40,397 nucleotides of DNA. It comes from a virus. A model generated the notes under the pieces. The model saw only the letters and a list, made by a program, of their open reading frames with translations, was not told the origin of the DNA and did not search any database. Shown here one piece after another: positions 3,497 through 32,164 of the stretch; positions within the stretch are counted from its first letter, which is position 1; each line of letters opens with the position of its first letter. Both the position numbers and the translations under genes were made by a program. The stretch is taken from positions 1-40,397 of the IMG/VR virus record IMGVR_UViG_3300031772_000096; one strand, 5' to 3'.

Positions 3497-3565
3497 TCAC
3501 CATTCCTCTCTGGGACTTCTTGGATACGGACACAACATCACTAATAAGCACAAAAGGTAAGTCAT
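3497..3565 (-). CDS. hydrophobic micropeptide, copy 1 (diverged, extended)
   Basis: 22 codons: MTYLLCLLVMLC then PYPRSPREEW. The first 12 residues are identical to copy 2 (4907..4954). Here a C for T change removes the usual LYL end and stop, extending the frame to a TGA two bases before ATG 3494. It starts with an ATGA overlap of the upstream gene 3562..3786, as do the other two copies. Confidence 0.5.
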   Translation of the reverse strand: MTYLLCLLVMLCPYPRSPREEW

Positions 3566-3786
3566 TTTTTAGTTATCTTTGGGCGAATTTTTAATTTTGG
3601 TAATCCTTCAACACATTGAGTTTGATATTCATATCCTAATTCGACTAAAAGTCTAAAAATTATATCTTCTAATCTTGTAAGGCGAGTAAATATCTGTGGC
3701 AAGTATCCTGTGGAGCCGGTAGTTAAATCAGTATATAATGCACTTTGGATAACTCCTAATTTTTCTCTTAACTTTTTATCTTTCAT
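3562..3786 (-). CDS. small hypothetical protein, paralogue of 4951..5115
   Basis: 74 residues, MKDKKLREKLGVIQS..., with CTAAGGAGGG before ATG inside junction repeat 3789..3812. Its C-terminal half (ELGYEYQTQCVEGLPKLKI) matches ELGYEYQDSCREYLPKLNKI of the gene at 4951, and both start MKDKxLRxxLG, so they are paralogues. Function unknown; likely an amphipathic helical protein. The stop overlaps micropeptide copy 1. Confidence 0.7.
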   Translation of the reverse strand: MKDKKLREKLGVIQSALYTDLTTGSTGYLPQIFTRLTRLEDIIFRLLVELGYEYQTQCVEGLPKLKIRPKITKK

Positions 3787-3788
3787 TT

Positions 3789-3812
3789 TCCCTCCTTAGG
3801 TAGAGTGGGTTA
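3789..3812. repeat. gene-junction repeat type 1, copy A
   Basis: On the minus strand it reads stop TAA, then CCCACTCTACCTAAGGAGGG. The ribosome site of the downstream gene is part of the repeat. The same junction occurs at 5373..5400 and 7412..7440, and half of it at 5118..5138. Confidence 0.85.
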
Positions 3813-4151
3813 TTTCTGTTCTGTTGGTAATGGGTGCTTCCACGGAAACATATCTGTAACACTTTCTAAATTCACAAAGGCAGTTCCTACTGGCTCGACT
3901 TCTTTTAATTCCCCGTTTTTAATCGCTTGCATAAATCTACCGCTATCTGCTACCCAAGATGCTTTCTCTAATTGTAAAAAAGCACCTATCCGTTTTGTAA
4001 CCTTTCCGACTAAATGATATGTTACTGTGCGAAAGAAAAAGTTATGTCCAATAATATCATCATAAGAGGATATATCTATTTTTTCATCTTCTTGTAACTG
4101 ATTTTTAATTCTTTCATAGGTTTCATCTGAAATCTCTAACATTTTTGTCAT
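3810..4151 (-). CDS. conserved phage hypothetical protein (ASWVADSGRF family)
   Basis: 113 residues from ATG 4151 (AAAGGAG upstream). Motifs KASWVADSGRFMQAIKNG and VEPVGTAFVN, then MFPWKHPLPTEQK at the C-terminus, match a widespread phage protein type with an (A/E)SWVADTGRF core and a final HPLPxxQK; to my knowledge its function is undefined. The frame is open upstream through the hexanucleotide array (to 4364), so an N-terminal Val/Glu/Gly extension is possible but no start with a ribosome site was seen there. Confidence 0.75.
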   Translation of the reverse strand: MTKMLEISDETYERIKNQLQEDEKIDISSYDDIIGHNFFFRTVTYHLVGKVTKRIGAFLQLEKASWVADSGRFMQAIKNGELKEVEPVGTAFVNLESVTDMFPWKHPLPTEQK

Positions 4152-4179
4152 TTTATTCTCCTTTTGGTTGATAGTGTTT

Positions 4180-4371
4180 ACCACGACCCCGACCTCGACC
4201 TCGACCACGACCTCGACCTCGACCACGACCTCGACCCCGACCTCGACCTCGACCTCGACCCCGACCCCGCCCCCGACCACGACCCCGACCTCAACCTCGA
4301 CCTCGACCCCGACCACGACCCCGACCTCAACCTCGACCTCGACCCCGACCACGACCCCGACCACGACCTCG
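4180..4371. repeat. 32-unit GC-rich hexanucleotide array
   Basis: 192 bp made entirely of ACCnCG hexamers (ACCTCG, ACCCCG, ACCACG, with two ACCTCA and one CCCCCG). Units 17-22 and 23-28 form an identical 36-bp higher-order repeat. It lies between genes 4417..4707 and 3810..4151, is far more GC-rich than its surroundings, and keeps all frames open; minus-strand frames read as Val/Glu/Gly or as Arg/Ser repeats. A GTG at 4402 with GGGGGTGAGGG upstream could start a 74-residue RS-repeat protein ending at 4178. Confidence 0.95.
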
Positions 4372-4407
4372 AGTTTACATTATTACTTAATATTGCTATC
4401 ACATTCC

Positions 4408-4430
4408 CTCACCCCCTTAATCATTTACCT
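4408..4430. repeat. gene-junction repeat type 2, copy 1
   Basis: 23 bp identical to 5738..5760. The minus strand reads AGGTAAATGATTAAGG followed by GGGTGAG: it contains the TAA of gene 4417..4707 and a ribosome-binding sequence for whatever follows, here the hexanucleotide array. Confidence 0.85.
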
Positions 4431-4707
4431 CCATAAACTCTCTCTTAATTTGTTTTAGGGTTTCGTCTATAATTTTATCTCTATTTTCTATTGGGGCTTC
4501 AAAAAATAATTCAATACAAGTTTTAATTATTTCTCTCGTTTTTCCTCTCCAATTCACCAATTTAGCTATATTGCTAATTATCCAAACCTTATCGGCAATC
4601 GTCTTTGCTATATATAGACTTAAAAACTTATTATGGTCTATATCCTCAACAAGTTCTTTGGTTAGGTTTATTTTGCGAAGCCATTGAATAAATTGAATTT
4701 TAGTCAT
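4417..4707 (-). CDS. hypothetical protein
   Basis: 96 residues, predicted all-helical: MTKIQFIQWLRKINLTKELV..., ending IKREFMEVND. Starts with an ATGA overlap of the upstream gene (4704..4707). Charge is balanced, no cysteine motif, no membrane span. No family recognised. Its final codons lie in junction repeat type 2, so the 3' end may have been exchanged with another gene that used the same junction (the fossil at 5751..5760). Confidence 0.65.
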   Translation of the reverse strand: MTKIQFIQWLRKINLTKELVEDIDHNKFLSLYIAKTIADKVWIISNIAKLVNWRGKTREIIKTCIELFFEAPIENRDKIIDETLKQIKREFMEVND

Positions 4708-4874
4708 TTAATTACTCTAACAAAATTAACTGGTTCATCTCTATCAGCAATCTGTTCTCTTCTAATCTGATAACCACCTGTCCGTTTGTCTACTTTTAGT
4801 AAGAGAAAATGGATTTTACCATTTGTAATTCCACAGTGTATTCGGTCAATAGTGTTATCAAATTCAACAATCAT
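4704..4874 (-). CDS. small hypothetical protein
   Basis: 56 residues, MIVEFDNTIDRIHCGITNGK..., with GAGGGGGAAGAG before ATG 4874. Beta-rich at the start (GKIHFLLLKVDKRTGGYQIR), ending FVRVIK. ATGA overlap with the next gene. No family recognised. Confidence 0.65.
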   Translation of the reverse strand: MIVEFDNTIDRIHCGITNGKIHFLLLKVDKRTGGYQIRREQIADRDEPVNFVRVIK

Positions 4875-4906
4875 CTCTTCCCCCTCACTTCATCCACCCC
4901 AATTCT

Positions 4907-4954
4907 TCATAGATACAGACACAACATCACTAATAAGCACAAAAGGTAAGTCAT
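4907..4954 (-). CDS. hydrophobic micropeptide, copy 2
   Basis: 15 residues, MTYLLCLLVMLCLYL, starting in an ATGA overlap with the stop of 4951..5115. The same peptide with small changes is at 6995..7042 and, extended, at 3497..3565. Its own stop overlaps ATGAAG of a six-codon frame MKNWGG that is also kept in copy 3 as MKRWGG. The sequence would span about one membrane leaflet; a leader-peptide or membrane role is inference. Confidence 0.55.
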   Translation of the reverse strand: MTYLLCLLVMLCLYL

Positions 4955-5115
4955 TTTATTTTATTCAATTTAGGCAAATATTCTCTACAACTATCTTGAT
5001 ATTCGTAACCTAATTCTTTTAAAAGCACTTCAATCTGCCTTTCTATTTTATCTATTCTTTTTAGACTACAATATTTATCCCAGCCTAGCCATCTTCTTAA
5101 ATCTTTATCTTTCAT
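4951..5115 (-). CDS. small hypothetical protein, paralogue of 3562..3786
   Basis: 54 residues: MKDKDLRRWLGWDKYCSLKR..., ending ELGYEYQDSCREYLPKLNKI plus K. Shares start, core and end with the product of 3562..3786 but lacks about 20 residues in the middle. CCTAAGGAGGGATA precedes ATG. The stop overlaps micropeptide copy 2. Function unknown. Confidence 0.7.
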   Translation of the reverse strand: MKDKDLRRWLGWDKYCSLKRIDKIERQIEVLLKELGYEYQDSCREYLPKLNKIK

Positions 5116-5117
5116 TA

Positions 5118-5138
5118 TCCCTCCTTAGGTAGGTCATT
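5118..5138. repeat. hybrid gene junction (micropeptide start joined to ribosome-site junction)
   Basis: The minus strand reads AATGACCTACCTAAGGAGGG: the left half equals the start of micropeptide copy 3 (AATGACCTACCTA) and the right half equals junction repeat type 1 (CTACCTAAGGAGGG). The shared core is CTACCTA. This looks like a recombination scar between the two repeat types. Confidence 0.7.
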
Positions 5139-5140
5139 TG

Positions 5141-5368
5141 TTATATCATATTTGCCTCTTGGGGTGGAGGCACATCTTTTAATGTTAATTTACTACCCTG
5201 CCGTCTTGTTCTACCATACCAATTTTCTCTTGCGACCACAGATTTATCAAAAGCAATTAAGCAATCGGTTAAATATTCAGCAAGAATAAAATCGGGAGTA
5301 TCGGAATTATTCTCTTGGGAATTTCTATTTATCAAGTGTTCCAAACCTTTTCTAAATTCAGTAATCAT
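5141..5368 (-). CDS. conserved phage protein (TPDFILAEYL family)
   Basis: 75 residues; CTAAGGAGGGATGAG before ATG. The stretch LINRNSQENNSDTPDFILAE, followed by YLTDCLIAFDKSV and RENWYG, is a hallmark of a small protein family common in tailed phages and prophages; its role is unknown to me. Full length for the family. It is followed by the hybrid junction at 5118..5138 and preceded by junction copy C. Confidence 0.8.
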   Translation of the reverse strand: MITEFRKGLEHLINRNSQENNSDTPDFILAEYLTDCLIAFDKSVVARENWYGRTRRQGSKLTLKDVPPPQEANMI

Positions 5369-5372
5369 CTCA

Positions 5373-5400
5373 TCCCTCCTTAGGTAGAGTGGGTTAGTAA
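5373..5400. repeat. gene-junction repeat type 1, copy C
   Basis: Same junction as 3789..3812 and 7412..7440. Here the upstream frame reads into it, so the YopX-family protein ends LLTHST with its TAA inside CTACCTAAGGAGGG; the gene 7419..7826 ends with the same six residues for the same reason. Confidence 0.85.
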
Positions 5401-5736
5401 GTCTGGGTTCTCATAGATGTTGCCGATGATTTCCATTGTCTCTGAACCTAACCTGCCGATACTACATCCTGAACCAATCTCTGATTTTTTCTTAAATTCT
5501 CCTTCATTAAAATAAACTTCATCTACACCAAATTCATTTTTAACAATGTCCCCTTCACAAATCTCCTGACCATTCTTGTCTTTAAGACCTGTGAACTCAT
5601 AAAATCTTTCTCCATTAAGGCAGAAAGCGAGATACAGCCCTCTTTGTTCTTCACTCCAAACTTGACCTAATGTAAAATATGCCCACCTCTTTTGCCATTT
5701 ACTCCACACCCTAAACTTTATTGTGCGATTTTCCAT
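5380..5736 (-). CDS. YopX family phage protein
   Basis: 118 residues from ATG 5736, directly after AAGGGGGTGAGT (part of junction repeat type 2). The order of motifs fits the YopX family: IKFRVW near the start, then FYEFTGLKDKNGQEICEGDI, then IIGNIYENPDLL near the end. YopX proteins are common in phages and are thought to form ring-like oligomers; function is unclear. The last residues (LTHST) derive from junction repeat C, so the original terminus has probably been replaced. Confidence 0.88.
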   Translation of the reverse strand: MENRTIKFRVWSKWQKRWAYFTLGQVWSEEQRGLYLAFCLNGERFYEFTGLKDKNGQEICEGDIVKNEFGVDEVYFNEGEFKKKSEIGSGCSIGRLGSETMEIIGNIYENPDLLTHST

Positions 5737-5737
5737 A

Positions 5738-5760
5738 CTCACCCCCTTAATCATTTACCT
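5738..5760. repeat. gene-junction repeat type 2, copy 2
   Basis: 23 bp identical to 4408..4430. In this copy no full-length gene ends in it; the frame reading in (QERYATAIIQVND then TAA) has no start and may be the fossil 3' end of a displaced gene. It provides the ribosome site of the YopX gene. Confidence 0.85.
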
Positions 5761-5794
5761 GAATAATTGCGGTTGCATATCTCTCTTGCTTTTG

Positions 5795-5959
5795 TTAATC
5801 AATATCAATAATATTTCTTATTACTCCTTTAATATCTTTTAATAACTCTCGGCATTTTTTAATATTTTGCGAATTGTCGGAATAGATAATTGTTTCATTT
5901 ATACGATGTTTACATTGCTTTCGCATCTCTTTACACCTTTCACAATAATACCAACCCAT
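5795..5959 (-). CDS. small zinc-finger-like protein
   Basis: 54 residues: MGWYYCERCKEMRKQCKHRI..., AAAGGA before ATG 5959. Cys6, Cys9, Cys16 and His18 form a plausible zinc site; the rest is an Ile/Lys-rich helix. Overlaps the 3' end of the methyltransferase gene by 20 nt. No family recognised. Confidence 0.6.
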   Translation of the reverse strand: MGWYYCERCKEMRKQCKHRINETIIYSDNSQNIKKCRELLKDIKGVIRNIIDID

Positions 5960-6590
5960 CGTTTTCCTTTCTTCTTTTCATTTCATTAAAAATGTGTAAG
6001 CCTATTCTTGGTAATACACAGTTTCTAAGCACTTGTCTTTTATTGGGCAATTTAAAATCTTTTAATTCGTGAAGCGTTAAAAACTCTGGTATCTGTGCTT
6101 CCCGGATTATGGCCTTGCGTTGTTTTTCTTTTGACGCTTGCCTGTTCATAGTGCCTATCTGGTAATCTACTTTAATATCACTTATCTTAAAATTCGCCCA
6201 GAAGTAATGTCGCCCTACTACTTGGGGTGGGTAAAGCGGGGCGTAATAACTTTTGGTATTTTCTACACAATATTTACCCTTAAAGAAATGCTTTAGTAAT
6301 ATAATCTCCTGCCATAAAGATTGGTCTGGATAACGGATAATCCCTTGCCCTTTTAAGAAATGACTACAAACACTATGACTCGGACAAGGCGGGCTACTCC
6401 ATATAAACTCAAACTCCTTAAAGTGGTCTAACAAATACTGGTGTGCATCCGCCACGATAACCTTATCCTGCAAAAAGAAGTCGGAATAAATTTTGGCTAT
6501 CTGGGGATTATTCTCAATGGCAGTTACCTCAACATCTGTCCAAAGTTTACGATTACCTCCGATGCCTGCGTAGAGATTAAGGACTTTCAT
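5940..6590 (-). CDS. DNA cytosine-5 methyltransferase
   Basis: 216 residues. Transfers a methyl group from S-adenosylmethionine to cytosine C5. Motif I NLYAGIGGNRKLW (residues 5-17) for cofactor binding, motif IV SSPPCPSHS with catalytic Cys69, motif VI YCVENTK (Glu110), and GRHYFWANF after it are all visible. It is short compared with restriction-type enzymes (300-400 residues), matching compact phage Dcm-like proteins that act alone to protect phage DNA from host restriction. It is coupled by ATGA to a cytidine deaminase. No cognate endonuclease is seen. The exact target sequence cannot be read from the sequence. Confidence 0.92.
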   Translation of the reverse strand: MKVLNLYAGIGGNRKLWTDVEVTAIENNPQIAKIYSDFFLQDKVIVADAHQYLLDHFKEFEFIWSSPPCPSHSVCSHFLKGQGIIRYPDQSLWQEIILLKHFFKGKYCVENTKSYYAPLYPPQVVGRHYFWANFKISDIKVDYQIGTMNRQASKEKQRKAIIREAQIPEFLTLHELKDFKLPNKRQVLRNCVLPRIGLHIFNEMKRRKENDGLVLL

Positions 6591-6952
6591 AGTTTTGGAT
6601 AATTAGGATATAAGTCTGTTATTAAATATTCTTTTTCGTCTTTGCCATTACTTGTAAGTAAAAGGGTAACCCTACTACTAAACATCATCAACCAATCAAG
6701 ACAAGCACCACAAGGAGCAAAGTCAACACCTTTCGCATAAATAGCAACTCTACTTATCACTTTATCACTATTAGAAATCCTCGAAATAGCACTAACTTCT
6801 GCGTGTAAAGATGTTTGCCAAGAACCCTCAATATTCCAACCTAAAATTATTTCATCATCATCTAATTCAATAGCACAACCTACTTTTATACCACTTCTAG
6901 CGGGAAGTGCATTTTTACTTGCTAACCTCGCTTCATTCAATAAATCTTTCAT
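6587..6952 (-). CDS. cytidine deaminase-like zinc enzyme
   Basis: 121 residues, near the usual size of homotetrameric cytidine deaminases. Catalytic HAE at His50-Ala-Glu52 (TSLHAEVSAISR) and PCGAC at 80-84 give zinc ligands His50, Cys81 and Cys84 and proton shuttle Glu52. The PCGAC form favours cytidine/deoxycytidine deaminase over dCMP deaminase, which usually has PCxxC with longer flanks. It would convert (deoxy)cytidine to (deoxy)uridine and feed thymidylate synthesis. GGGGGTAAAAG precedes ATG. Its stop overlaps the methyltransferase start, so the two cytosine-acting enzymes are made together. Confidence 0.88.
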   Translation of the reverse strand: MKDLLNEARLASKNALPARSGIKVGCAIELDDDEIILGWNIEGSWQTSLHAEVSAISRISNSDKVISRVAIYAKGVDFAPCGACLDWLMMFSSRVTLLLTSNGKDEKEYLITDLYPNYPKL

Positions 6953-6994
6953 CTTTTACCCCCTAACTATCTTCAATTTATCCACCCCATCTCT

Positions 6995-7042
6995 TCATAG
7001 ATACAGACACAACATCACTGCCATGCATAATAGGTAGGTCAT
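6995..7042 (-). CDS. hydrophobic micropeptide, copy 3
   Basis: 15 residues, MTYLLCMAVMLCLYL. Compared with copy 2, three codons differ silently (ACC/ACT, CTA/CTT, TTA/TTG) and two change one hydrophobic residue for another, which suggests selection on the peptide. It starts in an ATGA overlap with the stop of 7039..7197. Followed by the six-codon frame MKRWGG. Confidence 0.55.
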   Translation of the reverse strand: MTYLLCMAVMLCLYL

Positions 7043-7197
7043 TGTTTAGTTCCTAAAGTATTGTCCACTATTTTTTTACATTCAGTTACACCTTTTAAAT
7101 ATCCTTCGGAAAATCCAATCTTGCGACCTTCATCAAATGCGGTCTTATAAGTCATCATCTGTGCATCAACCATATTTTTTAAAAAATCATCTTTCAT
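7039..7197 (-). CDS. small helical protein (MKD... gene before micropeptide 3)
   Basis: 52 residues: MKDDFLKNMVDAQMMTYKTA..., ending IVDNTLGTKQ. Mostly helical (EGRKIGFSEGYLKGVTECKK). Starts in an ATGA overlap with the zinc-ribbon gene upstream. Not clearly similar to the paralogues at 3562 and 4951 beyond the MKD start, but it occupies the same position directly before the micropeptide. Function unknown. Confidence 0.6.
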   Translation of the reverse strand: MKDDFLKNMVDAQMMTYKTAFDEGRKIGFSEGYLKGVTECKKIVDNTLGTKQ

Positions 7198-7406
7198 TTT
7201 AATAACCTCCCATCTTCGCCTTCTTCTCTGTCAATTTCTTCTTGGGTGAATCCCGATGTATGTTCTCCACACTTGGGGCAAAAATCATTGTCAGGGTAAT
7301 CTGGCATTGTGGCTTGACAACAAACACTATAATAAGTGTTATGACAAATTGGACAACCCTCTTTCTGAACTACATGTCCTTTATTACATCTACCTTCTTT
7401 AGTCAT
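7194..7406 (-). CDS. small double zinc-ribbon protein
   Basis: 70 residues with GGAGGGAAGGAG before ATG. Cys pairs CPIC (18-21) and CPKC (43-46), plus Cys29/Cys30 and Cys7/His10, suggest one or two treble-clef or ribbon zinc sites. The C-terminus is acidic. Probably binds nucleic acid or protein; no family recognised. It follows junction repeat D. Confidence 0.7.
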   Translation of the reverse strand: MTKEGRCNKGHVVQKEGCPICHNTYYSVCCQATMPDYPDNDFCPKCGEHTSGFTQEEIDREEGEDGRLLK

Positions 7407-7411
7407 CTCCT

Positions 7412-7440
7412 TCCCTCCTTAGGTAGAGTGGGTTAGTAAA
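7412..7440. repeat. gene-junction repeat type 1, copy D
   Basis: Same junction as 3789..3812 and 5373..5400, with extended identity to copy C (TTACTAACCCACTC on the minus strand). The TAA of 7419..7826 lies inside it, directly followed by GGAGGG of the next ribosome site. Confidence 0.85.
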
Positions 7441-7826
7441 TTGTTCTTTTTTAAATAGAGCCACATTAGGGCGAGGGCATTGGGTAGAGATTTATCTGTT
7501 TCGGCAGTAAAAGTATGCGGATGATAATAGCAAACATCATTCGTATTCTCGTGCAACCTAATCTCTAAAACTGCCCTACAATTATCTTTTAATATTGTTT
7601 TTGGCAACTCCTCCAAAATCTCTGTGGCGAGAGGAGCGGGATATTCTGTATCATCCAACATAACGGGAGTATCTACAATTCTATATTCACCCTTAAAATT
7701 TTCTGCTGGTTTCCCAAAGGTTAAAACGCCATAATAATTATCGCTCCATTGATAAATTGTAGGCTCTTTCCATCCAGCTTCCTTCAAATCCTTACTAATC
7801 TCTAAACTTACGCAATGTTTATCCAT
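7419..7826 (-). CDS. conserved phage hypothetical protein
   Basis: 135 residues. CVSLEISKDLKEAGWKEPTI and YPAPLATEILEELP, then LPNALALMWLYLKKN, match a pattern shared by many phage and prophage proteins (a CVxxxxAxxLKxxGW start, APxxxELLExLP middle, and a final AxAxxWxxL helix); function unknown to me. The final LLTHST comes from junction repeat D, as in the YopX gene. Start ATG 7826, with GAAAGGAAAAC upstream. Confidence 0.75.
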   Translation of the reverse strand: MDKHCVSLEISKDLKEAGWKEPTIYQWSDNYYGVLTFGKPAENFKGEYRIVDTPVMLDDTEYPAPLATEILEELPKTILKDNCRAVLEIRLHENTNDVCYYHPHTFTAETDKSLPNALALMWLYLKKNNLLTHST

Positions 7827-19438: not shown

Positions 19439-21562
19439 TTATTGAGTATAGTTAAAAGTTACCCCTACAACTCCGCCAGTTGTCCAGGTAGTTGCCGTGA
19501 TGTGAAATCCTACCCAGTCATTCGCATCTATCGAGGGGTTACTCAAAGATGCGTCATCTGCGGCGTTTGTGCCAGATGTAACAGTTATATCCGTAGCCCC
19601 GTCTACTCCTGCACAGTTCGCCCCATTCGCATCACACTCGTCGAGATGGCAAGTAGCAGACCACGAAGTTCCAGTGGCAGTAACATTGACACTTGTTATA
19701 GTAATCGCCACAGGAGTTTTCCATAAAGTCCCATAATCAGAAGCAGTGGATACTGTGCCTGATAATTGAAAACTCTTACTCAATGGCACTTGTCCCGCAC
19801 CTGTTCCCCAGTCTATATCTACAAGACCTAAACTATCGGCAGGCAAAGTTAATTCGCCATTTCCCGTTCCATCTGTAGTCAAAGCGATAGTATCAGTTGT
19901 AGCATCTCCGATTGTAAAAGAGATATTTCCACTTTTTATATCTCCGCCCGATACAGTAATATCCCCTGAAAATGTAGCCAGTCCTGTCGTCCAAGTAACT
20001 GTATAATCAGTCGCAAGGTCAAAAGTCCATACCTGTTGAGCTCCAGCTCCCCAAGTGGGAGCGATAACTTCGGCAGGAGCAAATTTAAGCACTGCCGTAT
20101 CTATGGCTAAGCCTACGCCTTCTAAATCTGTGCAAGCAGTAACATCAGTTGTAATTATTCCAGCTAATCCATCCAATCGGTCTAATTCGGCGGCTGAAAG
20201 TGTAGTCGGTGTAGAAGTGGTTAAACTTGTAGTAATGGTAGGTGTAGTTAAGTTCCAAGAGGTAACTGCTACGCTATCGTCTATTGTAGGTAAAGCCCAA
20301 GTGCCACCGAGTTCTCCTCCTGGTGTTTCCGTAGAATTGTAAACAGCATTTGTGCCTTCCGTTAAAGTCGCAACATCTACCGTTCCAGAAAATGTCGTTT
20401 TCGCAGTTGTCCAGGTCATTGTTACATCAGTAGCCAAGTCAATAGTCCAAACAATACCTGCACCCGAACCCCAAGTTAAATTTCCAAGTTCAGTAGCGTC
20501 AAAGGTTAAAGTAGTATCTGCGTCAGCACCAGGCAAGACATCATTCTCGCCACCTGAAAGACCTACACCTGCGACTATATCTTTAGCAAGTGTCCCAGCC
20601 ATTTTTCCATTAAAAGTATTCCAATCGGTTGACCATAAATAACCATTTGTTGTAGTGTCTGCTTTTGGTATGGCTATTGTAATGTCTGCTTCTGCTCCAG
20701 GTAAAATATTATCTGTGCCGCCTGTAATGGGTGCAGTCGTAACTAAATCCTTGGCTAAAGTGCCAGCCATTTTATCGTTAAATGTATTCCAATCTGTGCT
20801 CCAAAGATAACCGTTTGTAGTTGTATCTGCTTTAGTGATAGATAAAGTTATATCAGCTTCCGCACCTGGAAGTATGTTGTCGGTCCCACCAGCTAAAGGA
20901 GTGGTAGTTACTAAATCTTTAGCAAGCGTTCCAGCCATTTTGTCATTAAAGGTATTCCAGTCGGTTGACCAGAGATAGCCATTAGTTGAGGTATCGGCTT
21001 TTCCAAGTATCGTCTGAATTTCAGCAGAAGTATCTACTGTGGGGTCGACTTCGGTATGTATAAGTGTTCCCCCTGTGGTAGGAAGTGTCCAAGTAACCGC
21101 ACCTGCAATATCTGGAATAATTAAAGTCCCTGCCCCCTGTGGGTCATAAAAACTGATATAAGTCCCGCCATCTGAGGTGCCGTCAAGACAAGCACCACCT
21201 GTGCAGTCGCCTACATCAGTAACATCACCGGCACCGGCAGGGGCATTTTCAGTGCATACTACCTTACCTCCGCTTTCAATACACCATTTGCCAGTTGTAA
21301 GAGTGCCGATTTTATCGCAACTATCAACTATATTATTAACATCTGTATCGTAGGTGGCTTTGAGCATATCACCAGAACCACCCCCCGAAAAAGTAACTAC
21401 TAATCCTGTGGCGGTATTAGATAATGAAGTATTGGGAAATCTTACTTTGGTAGGAAAAACTGAAGGAGAACCATCTTGTTCAATCCAATTAACAGGCGGA
21501 AAAGCACCGTAAGAATTACTTGCAAAACAGAGTATCGCTAATATAATAAATAATTTACGCAT
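19439..21562 (-). CDS. long tail-fibre protein with 56-residue repeats and a signal peptide
   Basis: 707 residues, Thr/Gly/Ala-rich. MRKLFIILAILCFASNSYGA is a signal-peptide-like N-terminus. Three near-identical 56-residue repeats cover residues 188-355, each with TTNGYLWSTDWNTFNDKMAG and DNILPGAEADIT; the GYLxSTDWNTFN motif is common in phage tail fibres and bacterial adhesins. Later LATDVTMTWTTAKTTFSG and LATDYTVTWTTGLATFSG form a second diverged pair. The C-terminus (VDWGTGAGQVPLSKSFQL... GVTFNYTQ) probably forms the receptor-binding tip. A fibre with an export signal is odd for a virion protein. Confidence 0.78.
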   Translation of the reverse strand: MRKLFIILAILCFASNSYGAFPPVNWIEQDGSPSVFPTKVRFPNTSLSNTATGLVVTFSGGGSGDMLKATYDTDVNNIVDSCDKIGTLTTGKWCIESGGKVVCTENAPAGAGDVTDVGDCTGGACLDGTSDGGTYISFYDPQGAGTLIIPDIAGAVTWTLPTTGGTLIHTEVDPTVDTSAEIQTILGKADTSTNGYLWSTDWNTFNDKMAGTLAKDLVTTTPLAGGTDNILPGAEADITLSITKADTTTNGYLWSTDWNTFNDKMAGTLAKDLVTTAPITGGTDNILPGAEADITIAIPKADTTTNGYLWSTDWNTFNGKMAGTLAKDIVAGVGLSGGENDVLPGADADTTLTFDATELGNLTWGSGAGIVWTIDLATDVTMTWTTAKTTFSGTVDVATLTEGTNAVYNSTETPGGELGGTWALPTIDDSVAVTSWNLTTPTITTSLTTSTPTTLSAAELDRLDGLAGIITTDVTACTDLEGVGLAIDTAVLKFAPAEVIAPTWGAGAQQVWTFDLATDYTVTWTTGLATFSGDITVSGGDIKSGNISFTIGDATTDTIALTTDGTGNGELTLPADSLGLVDIDWGTGAGQVPLSKSFQLSGTVSTASDYGTLWKTPVAITITSVNVTATGTSWSATCHLDECDANGANCAGVDGATDITVTSGTNAADDASLSNPSIDANDWVGFHITATTWTTGGVVGVTFNYTQ
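20498..21001. repeat. three 168-bp repeats in the tail-fibre gene
   Basis: Encode residues 188-355 of the fibre protein. Copies 1 and 2 are nearly identical in protein; copy 3 differs at the end (GVGLSGGENDVLPGADADTT). The DNA has drifted more than the protein, so these are old repeats under selection, not a recent duplication. Confidence 0.85.
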
Positions 21563-30067: not shown

Positions 30068-31071
30068 TAGACCTCTGTTATGGTATAACTATCTTCCAAA
30101 CTAATCCACCCACCTTGTTGATTTCTTAACCCTGACCTCAATGTAGGTATATAATCTAAATTTTGCATATCAGCCCGCACCATTGAACGGACACCAGCAC
30201 TATACATACCCTGTGTTGCTGTAAACAATTCAAGTTTCCCTTGATATTGATAAACTTTTGCCATAGCACCTAAACGGATAATCCATATCCATTTCTCGTC
30301 AATGTCAGGCACATCATTATCGCCTTCCAAGTTTCTTATTCGGGTGTAGTATTCAATGTAAACAGAGATTGCTGATGAAGGTATGGGATAAAAAGAAATA
30401 ATTTTAAACCTTGCCGAAAGTTCGGTAGGTGCTAATTGGACTAAAGTAACATCTAAAGTGGCTTTTCTTACTGTGATAATTCCTACTGTGGAGGCGGATT
30501 TGGATATTCTTAACACATCTCCAGCGTTCCAGGTGATAGTTCCAGGCACAAAAGTCTCTCCTGTCAAAGTAAGACTTTCTGTGCGAGATAATCCATTACT
30601 ATCTGTTCCTACTATTCTTACTGTCTGGGTGGTGTCTGAGGACGAAGAAGATAAAACTTCAATCGTATCATCTGCGGTCAACCTTACTGATACCCCTTCT
30701 TCTTCCCATATCCGATACCATTTAGGGTTTCCTGTTGCGGTGGGATTAGGAATGTAATCATAGAATAAGTCATCTGGGATAAAACGAATTTTCTGTGGTG
30801 AGGTAGTCTGACGAATTAAACCGATAGCATCTAAATCTCTTGGAAGTTGGTAGAACTCGGTAGAGGCGACAGTAGCGAGAGTATATTTTCTGCGGTTAAA
30901 AGACCACTTGTGTTCATATCCCTTCTGTCCTGTCTGTTCAAACGCCCAAGCAGGACTTTGGATTTCCTGAACGGTCTGATTTATATACTCATCTATTGTA
31001 GAATTTATCTGTGTTTCTCTTGTGTCAGTAGCGATTTGTGTCCTTAAAGCCAACCGAGTTTTTAGTGCCAT
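30067..31071 (-). CDS. head-tail adaptor / tail tubular-type protein
   Basis: 334 residues, no signal peptide. The N-terminus LALRTQIATDTRETQINSTI, followed by YINQTVQEIQSPAWAF, is the helical start of phage adaptor proteins. FYQLPRDLDAIGLIRQT, PNPTATGNPKWYRIWEE and beta strands follow; the C-terminus has YYTRIRNLEGDNDVPDIDEK, then WIWIIRLGAMAKVYQYQ. This arrangement matches podovirus tail tubular A/gp4-like adaptors that join the portal to the tail. Located after the O-antigen ligase gene, overlapping it by 47 nt. Confidence 0.75.
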   Translation of the reverse strand: MALKTRLALRTQIATDTRETQINSTIDEYINQTVQEIQSPAWAFEQTGQKGYEHKWSFNRRKYTLATVASTEFYQLPRDLDAIGLIRQTTSPQKIRFIPDDLFYDYIPNPTATGNPKWYRIWEEEGVSVRLTADDTIEVLSSSSSDTTQTVRIVGTDSNGLSRTESLTLTGETFVPGTITWNAGDVLRISKSASTVGIITVRKATLDVTLVQLAPTELSARFKIISFYPIPSSAISVYIEYYTRIRNLEGDNDVPDIDEKWIWIIRLGAMAKVYQYQGKLELFTATQGMYSAGVRSMVRADMQNLDYIPTLRSGLRNQQGGWISLEDSYTITEV

Positions 31072-32164
31072 TTACCACCTCATTTTTAATTATATATAAT
31101 CCTGCATAGGACATAAGACCTATTACACTCGTCAACCATAAATGGGCTGGTGATAACATTCCCGATACAAAACAAAATCCGAAAAATATACTCGCCAACC
31201 TAATTGTTAAGTCAGTTTTTAATGGTGTCTTAAAATAATCCCAGATACACCAAAGAACTAAAATCAAACCTATTAAACCTAACTCAAAAACTACCTGTAA
31301 GTATTCGTTATGTAAGTGTTGCCAATGATAATTTGTGCTTCCTATATTGCTTAATGAATAAGTCCCAAGCCCAAACCCTGTGATAAATTTATCTTTAATT
31401 TCCTTACAAACCAAACCCCAAACCCTAAACCTGTCGGAATTAAAAAAGAAACCCTTGTTAACCAACCGTAAGACAGTTAACAAAACGGTTGATACTATTG
31501 AAAAACTTATGGCTAATCTGCGTTTCTTAAAGAATAACCAGAATAAAAATACCCCCAGACCCACAACTAAACCCGTAGCTGAACCCGTTAAAATAATTAT
31601 CAACCATAATAAAATAAGTGATAAGATATTCTCTCGGCTTTTCTCAAAGAACAGAGGTTGTAATATCGCCAATAATCCCGCCAAGTGTATAGGGTTTCCT
31701 ATCGTTCCTGTCAATTCATCGTGTCCTGAAAGTCCTGCAAAAAACTCATCTAATTTAAGGTATTGTAAGGCACAGTAAAAAAGTAGAATTATTACGCTAT
31801 ACTTCAACCACCTTAAAATCATTTCTATGTCATCCTTATTAAGATATTCCGTAATTAACTTATAGAGCCACACAAGGCATAATAGGTTAAAGAAAGGTAA
31901 AAATATCTTGATTGGATAATGTTGGGTCTTAGAGAATACCGTCAACCAACCATAAGCCGTTACTAACCCAGACCAACATATAAAAGAACCCAATGGTTTG
32001 TTCAATATTTGAACATACTTGGGCTTTTCAAAGAACGAATAACAAAACAAAATCAAAATGCTTACTTGGACAAAATGCCCTGTTGAGTGCCAAAGGTCTG
32101 TTGTTCTAAAAAAGAAATTTCCCCAAGGCAACAGAAAAAAGAACAGAATGAATAGATTACTCAT
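31025..32164 (-). CDS. O-antigen ligase/polymerase-like membrane protein (Wzy_C family)
   Basis: 379 residues with about ten membrane spans. It has the conserved loop GTIGNPIHLAG (153-163), GSATG (194-198), RVWG at 247-250 and the long-loop motif FGLGTYSLSN ... HLHNEYLQVVFELGLIGL (263-300), typical of WaaL/Wzy proteins that join or polymerise O-antigen on undecaprenyl carriers. GGGTAGATG-type start overlapping the upstream lipoprotein stop (ATGA 32161..32164). It sits inside the structural operon between capsid genes and head-tail adaptor, suggesting a host-surface-changing function late in infection or in a carrier state. Ligase and polymerase cannot be told apart by eye. Confidence 0.82.
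   Translation of the reverse strand: MSNLFILFFFLLPWGNFFFRTTDLWHSTGHFVQVSILILFCYSFFEKPKYVQILNKPLGSFICWSGLVTAYGWLTVFSKTQHYPIKIFLPFFNLLCLVWLYKLITEYLNKDDIEMILRWLKYSVIILLFYCALQYLKLDEFFAGLSGHDELTGTIGNPIHLAGLLAILQPLFFEKSRENILSLILLWLIIILTGSATGLVVGLGVFLFWLFFKKRRLAISFSIVSTVLLTVLRLVNKGFFFNSDRFRVWGLVCKEIKDKFITGFGLGTYSLSNIGSTNYHWQHLHNEYLQVVFELGLIGLILVLWCIWDYFKTPLKTDLTIRLASIFFGFCFVSGMLSPAHLWLTSVIGLMSYAGLYIIKNEVVNGTKNSVGFKDTNRY

Follow-up and report, generated by a model that had tools for sequence, protein, structure and literature searches.

Gene-start repeats in mycobacteriophages and the linkers described here

In Cluster K mycobacteriophages, short asymmetric repeats known as start-associated sequences (SAS) and extended SAS lie in one orientation directly before gene starts in the non-structural region (PMC3203893). 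They contain or adjoin the core of the Shine-Dalgarno sequence, sometimes also an upstream stop codon, and stand beside unrelated genes; their function is unproven (PMC3203893). The consensus, GGGATAGGAGCCC, is present in 11 to 19 copies, and 17-bp inverted repeats have also been described (PMC3203893). Here we report repeated gene-junction linkers in a virus, IMG/VR record IMGVR_UViG_3300031772_000096, and in particular an element that we call linker C, which occurs there in three copies. The window analyzed is the whole record (positions 1 to 40,397; 40,397 bases), which carries a 127-base direct terminal repeat.

Like the SAS of Cluster K, the linkers are short repeats in one orientation that are confined to the region of non-structural genes; some include the stop codon of the preceding gene, the genes beside them are unrelated to one another, and linker A places AAGGAGG just before a gene start. 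They differ from SAS in sequence, which is unrelated to that consensus, and in copy number, which is 3 to 4 rather than 11 to 19. In linker C, the start signal comes tens of bases after the repeat and is preceded by a conserved core, whereas 17-bp inverted repeats and a strong dyad are absent. The linkers resemble SAS and extended SAS in position and kind, without being members of that class. Linker C is probably a repeated junction linker of the start-associated type, in which an extra core of approximately 33 nt provides a regulatory or spacer sequence, a role modeled on the proposal made for extended SAS.

Linker C is a repeated DNA element

A 65-nt query matched exactly three places in the window, with E values of 8e-30, 9e-18, and 1e-16 (Table 1). 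Copies 2 and 3 share an exact core of 28 nt, for which 0 occurrences are expected by chance, and their identity extends beyond the stop codon of the short peptide frame that each contains. Each of the three copies opens with the ATGA at which an upstream MKD gene terminates, and about 33 conserved nucleotides (TTTGTGCTTATTAGTGATGTTGTGTCTGTATCT) separate the head of the linker from the G-rich signal at which the next gene starts. This signal is strong and is located after the repeat in copies 2 and 3.

Copies 1 and 2 are identical over 37 nt, and the paralogous genes beside them (57% amino acid identity) use different codons at 10 of 30 degenerate identical residues. Because the linkers remained identical while the adjacent paralogues diverged, the DNA itself has either been conserved or was copied recently. 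A constraint on the peptide alone would not hold the synonymous sites of these two copies so well, whereas a constraint on the DNA or recent copying would.

A first-pass annotation of the window had described the same places as three copies of a coupled, 15-residue hydrophobic micropeptide. The three frames are indeed present where it had placed them, all on the minus strand, and each starts in the ATGA of an upstream MKD gene (Table 1); at the ends of copies 2 and 3, the second tiny frames, MKNWGG and MKRWGG, overlap in the same ATGA manner, as it had also stated. The repeated DNA is beyond chance, whereas a short frame after ATGA is not: at least 15 codons are open at 53% of the 91 ATGA sites of the early region, and likewise in 53% of shuffles of copy 2. 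The ATGA overlap is the usual gene junction in this phage and is not special to the peptide.

TABLE 1 Linkers, adjacent small genes, and short frames in the window
Feature	Position	Strand	Remarks
Linker C copy 1	3516..3565	-	50-nt match; ends gene 3562-3786 at TGA; peptide frame altered
Linker C copy 2	4890..4954	-	65 nt; ends gene 4951-5115; precedes gene 4704-4874
Linker C copy 3	6980..7042	-	63 nt; ends gene 7039-7197; precedes deaminase gene 6587-6952
Small gene MKDKKLREKLG...	3562..3786	-	Paralogue of 4951-5115, 57% identity
Small gene MKDKDLRRWLG...	4951..5115	-	Upstream of copy 2
Small gene MKDDFLKNM...	7039..7197	-	Upstream of copy 3
Linker A, TAACCCACTCTACCTAAGGAGGGA	3789..3812	-	Shine-Dalgarno sequence of gene 3562-3786
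Linker A copy	5373..5396	-	THST-stop C terminus of YopX-like gene and Shine-Dalgarno sequence of gene 5141-5368
Linker A copy	7412..7435	-	THST-stop of gene 7419-7826 and Shine-Dalgarno sequence of gene 7194-7406
Linker B, GGTAAATGATTAAGGGGGTGAG	4408..4429	-	Ends gene 4417-4707
Linker B copy	5738..5759	-	Before YopX-like gene
Hybrid linker, ATGACCTACCTAAGGAGGGA	5118..5137	-	Linker C head and linker A tail; Shine-Dalgarno sequence of gene 4951-5115
Small frame in copy 1, MTYLLCLLVMLCPYPRSPREEW-stop	3497..3565	-	Two L to P changes; stop lost
Small frame in copy 2, MTYLLCLLVMLCLYL-stop	4907..4954	-	No Shine-Dalgarno sequence
Small frame in copy 3, MTYLLCMAVMLCLYL-stop	6995..7042	-	Weak Shine-Dalgarno match, -4.2 kcal/mol
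Second tiny frame MKNWGG, copy 2	4890..4910	-	ATGA overlap; no Shine-Dalgarno sequence
Second tiny frame MKRWGG, copy 3	6978..6998	-	ATGA overlap; no Shine-Dalgarno sequence

Related linkers at neighboring junctions

The leftward early operon contains at least three types of repeated linker, linker C among them. Every copy of linkers A and C, as well as both exact copies of linker B, is on the minus strand within 3.5-7.5 kb; elsewhere, look-alikes are weak, with at least two mismatches. The YopX-like protein and the product of gene 7419-7826, which are unrelated, both end in LLTHST because their final codons are linker A.

The head of linker C, ATGACYTACCT, encodes MTYL and occurs four times. 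At 5127-5137 it is found as ATGACCTACCTAAGGAGGGATAATG, where the junction is of the ordinary Shine-Dalgarno kind and lacks a hydrophobic peptide. Since the hybrid linker at this junction carries the head of linker C, the MTYL codons are those of the linker head and are also present without the peptide. Thus, what the copies of the proposed micropeptide have in common is largely a repeated DNA element, the very circumstance that the first-pass annotation had named as counting against its proposal. In a multiple alignment, linker C corresponds to an A-type linker in which 33 additional nt separate ACCT from A(A)GGAG, and it may have arisen by an insertion of this kind.

The head of linker C supplies the TGA stop of the preceding gene and is common to linkers that run straight into a Shine-Dalgarno sequence. 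We propose that the linker would act at the DNA or RNA level, closing one small-gene cassette and setting up initiation of the next, with the 33-nt core as a putative protein- or RNA-binding regulatory sequence or a spacer. The linkers may have spread via duplication and recombination of gene cassettes, favored by their shared sequence. The 15-residue frame would then be mostly a by-product, with the stop-plus-CYTACCT head giving rise to MTYL and the T-rich core to most of the hydrophobic run; if ribosomes enter the frame, its likeliest use would be as a relay across the 75- to 85-nt gap rather than as a membrane peptide. A stop and a ribosome start signal carried in interchangeable linkers would let the small-gene cassettes of a phage early operon shuffle with expression intact. 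Besides, a short frame that is conserved within a linker of this kind is not necessarily a gene, which calls for caution in annotation.

Linkers in a different phage

A contig with otherwise different gene content, L018 (IMGVR_UViG_3300035701_000628), encodes a methyltransferase 92% identical to that of the window and an adjoining homologue of gene 7419-7826. Linkers TAACCCCACCAAGGAGGAGAG, TAACCCCACCAAGGAGAGAATAA, and ATGACCCACCAAGGAGGGATAA lie around these two genes; TAACCCCACCAAGGAG occurs twice and ATGACCCACCAAGGAGGGATAA once in L018, i.e., three sites versus 0.05 expected in shuffles. In ATGACCCACCAAGGAGGGATAA, ATGACC is found again, its TGA is the stop of the preceding gene, and no hydrophobic peptide follows. 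That an otherwise different phage carries homologous linkers near the methyltransferase and small gene it shares with the window suggests that linkers accompany gene cassettes between phages, so that junctions may travel with them.

The searches located the 33-nt core of linker C neither in L018 nor elsewhere. DNA scans with the core gave one match in IMG/VR and two in 84,980 genomes, which we attribute to chance, as their flanks were without similarity. An exact 20-mer of linker A had no match in IMG/VR, searches with the small genes, singly or concatenated, revealed no homologue of the region, and short queries against phage and plasmid records returned chance-level matches only. A weak match (L070; E value of 0.006) falls within a collagen-like repeat, and we regard it as fortuitous. 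A search with the terminase led to L005 (IMGVR_UViG_3300032046_000225), which is 96.5% identical over the structural half and whose record lacks the early region, and to L007 (79%), which has unrelated sequence upstream of the terminase.

The methyltransferase of the window (5940-6590, minus strand) is a short C5-methyltransferase-like protein of 216 amino acids, with a Pfam DNA_methylase match to its first quarter only. Its close relatives, up to 94% identical, occur in many otherwise unrelated phage contigs (L017-L064). In L018, two radical-SAM-like genes and transketolase-like subunits (4418-7779), judged by eye from their translations, adjoin the packaging genes.

Alternative explanations

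Several observations weigh against linker C as a regulatory or spacer-bearing junction. The core had no match in Rfam, no regulator and no strong dyad were found, and the linkers folded no better than their shuffles. In predicted folds of copies 2 and 3, an ACYUACCU head hiding the downstream start signal was seen without statistical support, and we do not claim it. Further points concern the peptide frame itself. Its ATG coincides exactly with the 5' edge of the repeat, and its hydrophobicity is mildly unusual, the level of copy 2 being equaled or exceeded in approximately 4% of shuffled open frames. Besides, copy 3 departs from copy 2 at 7 of 48 bases in the frame, and these seven substitutions amount to the three silent codons and two hydrophobic swaps (L to M and L to A) already annotated. 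Two amino acid changes compare with 5.0 expected from random placement, in the peptide frame only (P = 0.008, uncorrected). The argument from these silent changes for selection on the peptide is weak: the P value rises to approximately 0.05 after allowing for six frames, in a single comparison of 48 nt, and four of the seven changes, clustered in a stretch of five bases, may reflect a single event.

These latter points speak for a translated hydrophobic micropeptide, or a two-step relay of MTYLLC... and then MKxWGG, coupled through ATGA and selected as a peptide, an explanation that we consider unlikely. Such a peptide might have a membrane function or hand ribosomes on to the following gene. 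Against it, the head that encodes MTYL occurs without the peptide, as described above, and copy 1 is altered. The frame of copy 1 had been taken for an extended version, and it is indeed longer; its three base differences from copy 2 are, however, all non-synonymous and comprise two L to P changes and the loss of the stop (TGA to AGA). When the peptide was back-translated into a pattern that left its codons free, IMG/VR returned no match. Fifteen residues are also short for a membrane span.

The starts of the frames were likewise informative. Shine-Dalgarno pairing at peptide starts 1, 2, and 3 was -0.9, +0.4, and -4.2 kcal/mol, respectively, versus a gene median of -7.3 kcal/mol, so that two of the three starts are without a Shine-Dalgarno sequence; the MKNWGG and MKRWGG starts scored +0.3 kcal/mol. 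The genes downstream of copies 2 and 3 showed strong pairing (-11.3 and -10.6 kcal/mol). Some of the other ATGA genes are likewise without a Shine-Dalgarno sequence, among them the methyltransferase, whose coupled start scores +2.0 kcal/mol. Since coupled starts can work without a Shine-Dalgarno sequence, the weak pairing at the peptide starts is evidence against translation but no proof.

Two kinds of known short peptides invite comparison. Type I toxins such as Ibs and TimP are hydrophobic peptides that are very short, leucine-rich, and multicopy. The peptide frame is likewise very short, leucine-rich, and multicopy, whereas it has no strong ribosome-binding site (none at two of the three copies), is broken in one copy, and lies at operon junctions. 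Leader peptides and translationally coupled genes show an ATGA stop-start overlap with the upstream gene, as the frame does; in contrast to these, the peptide stop in copies 2 and 3 is away from the downstream start, and the downstream genes have strong Shine-Dalgarno sequences of their own. It seems quite unlikely that the early operon employs a repeated cassette linker whose 15-residue hydrophobic peptide, with MKxWGG after it, is translated between unrelated genes to serve as a relay or as a membrane micropeptide. The observation in the first-pass annotation is sound, and its micropeptide interpretation is weakly supported.

It is improbable that linker C is a gene fossil, in which the core of about 33 nt and the following bases would be the drifting end of a gene lost from between linkers. 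The old reading frame would be the third frame (NDLPFVLISDVVSVSMKNWGG and a stop), which in copy 1 continues without a stop into the gene downstream. This frame, NDLPFVLISDVVSVS, stays open in all three copies and explains MKNWGG and MKRWGG as one C terminus; the hybrid linker at 5118-5137 shows that cassettes have been rearranged. However, the third frame had no protein match among phage records, it contains four amino acid changes between copies 2 and 3, which is no better than random, and exact conservation of 28 nt is much for drift.

Linker C is very improbable as an internal promoter or operator that recurs ahead of certain early genes. Although the copies lie upstream of genes in a long operon, no copy has a minus-strand match of the sigma-70 type, such matches are fewer in the region than in its shuffles (28 versus 37.6), no good dyad was found, and a strong consensus promoter lies upstream at 12426-12399.

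The early operon and other features of the window

The phage has a Terminase_6-type terminase and a P22/SU10-type portal, and nearly all genes of the window are carried on the minus strand. The promoter at 12426-12399 (minus strand) is a perfect sigma-70 consensus, TTGACA-16-TATAAT, and a terminator-like hairpin of 20 pairs (12303-12259, minus strand) follows it by approximately 95 bp. Together they probably mark the opening of the early region, and 12426-12259 is possibly an early promoter with an attenuator or antitermination site. The copies of linker C sit distally in this region, amid small genes with few database relatives.

A 193-bp array of ACCTCG-type hexamers, with a higher period of 36 bp, occupies 4180-4372; one of its minus-strand frames would carry a long VEVEVG/VVVGVE run into the gene ending at 3810. 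Among the structural genes is one for an O-antigen ligase (Wzy_C; 31025-32164, minus strand), and alteration of the host surface is a possible role for its product. The large gene 19439-21562 holds three 168-bp direct repeats at 20574-21002, which are tail or fiber-like (TTTNGYLWSTDWNTFND).

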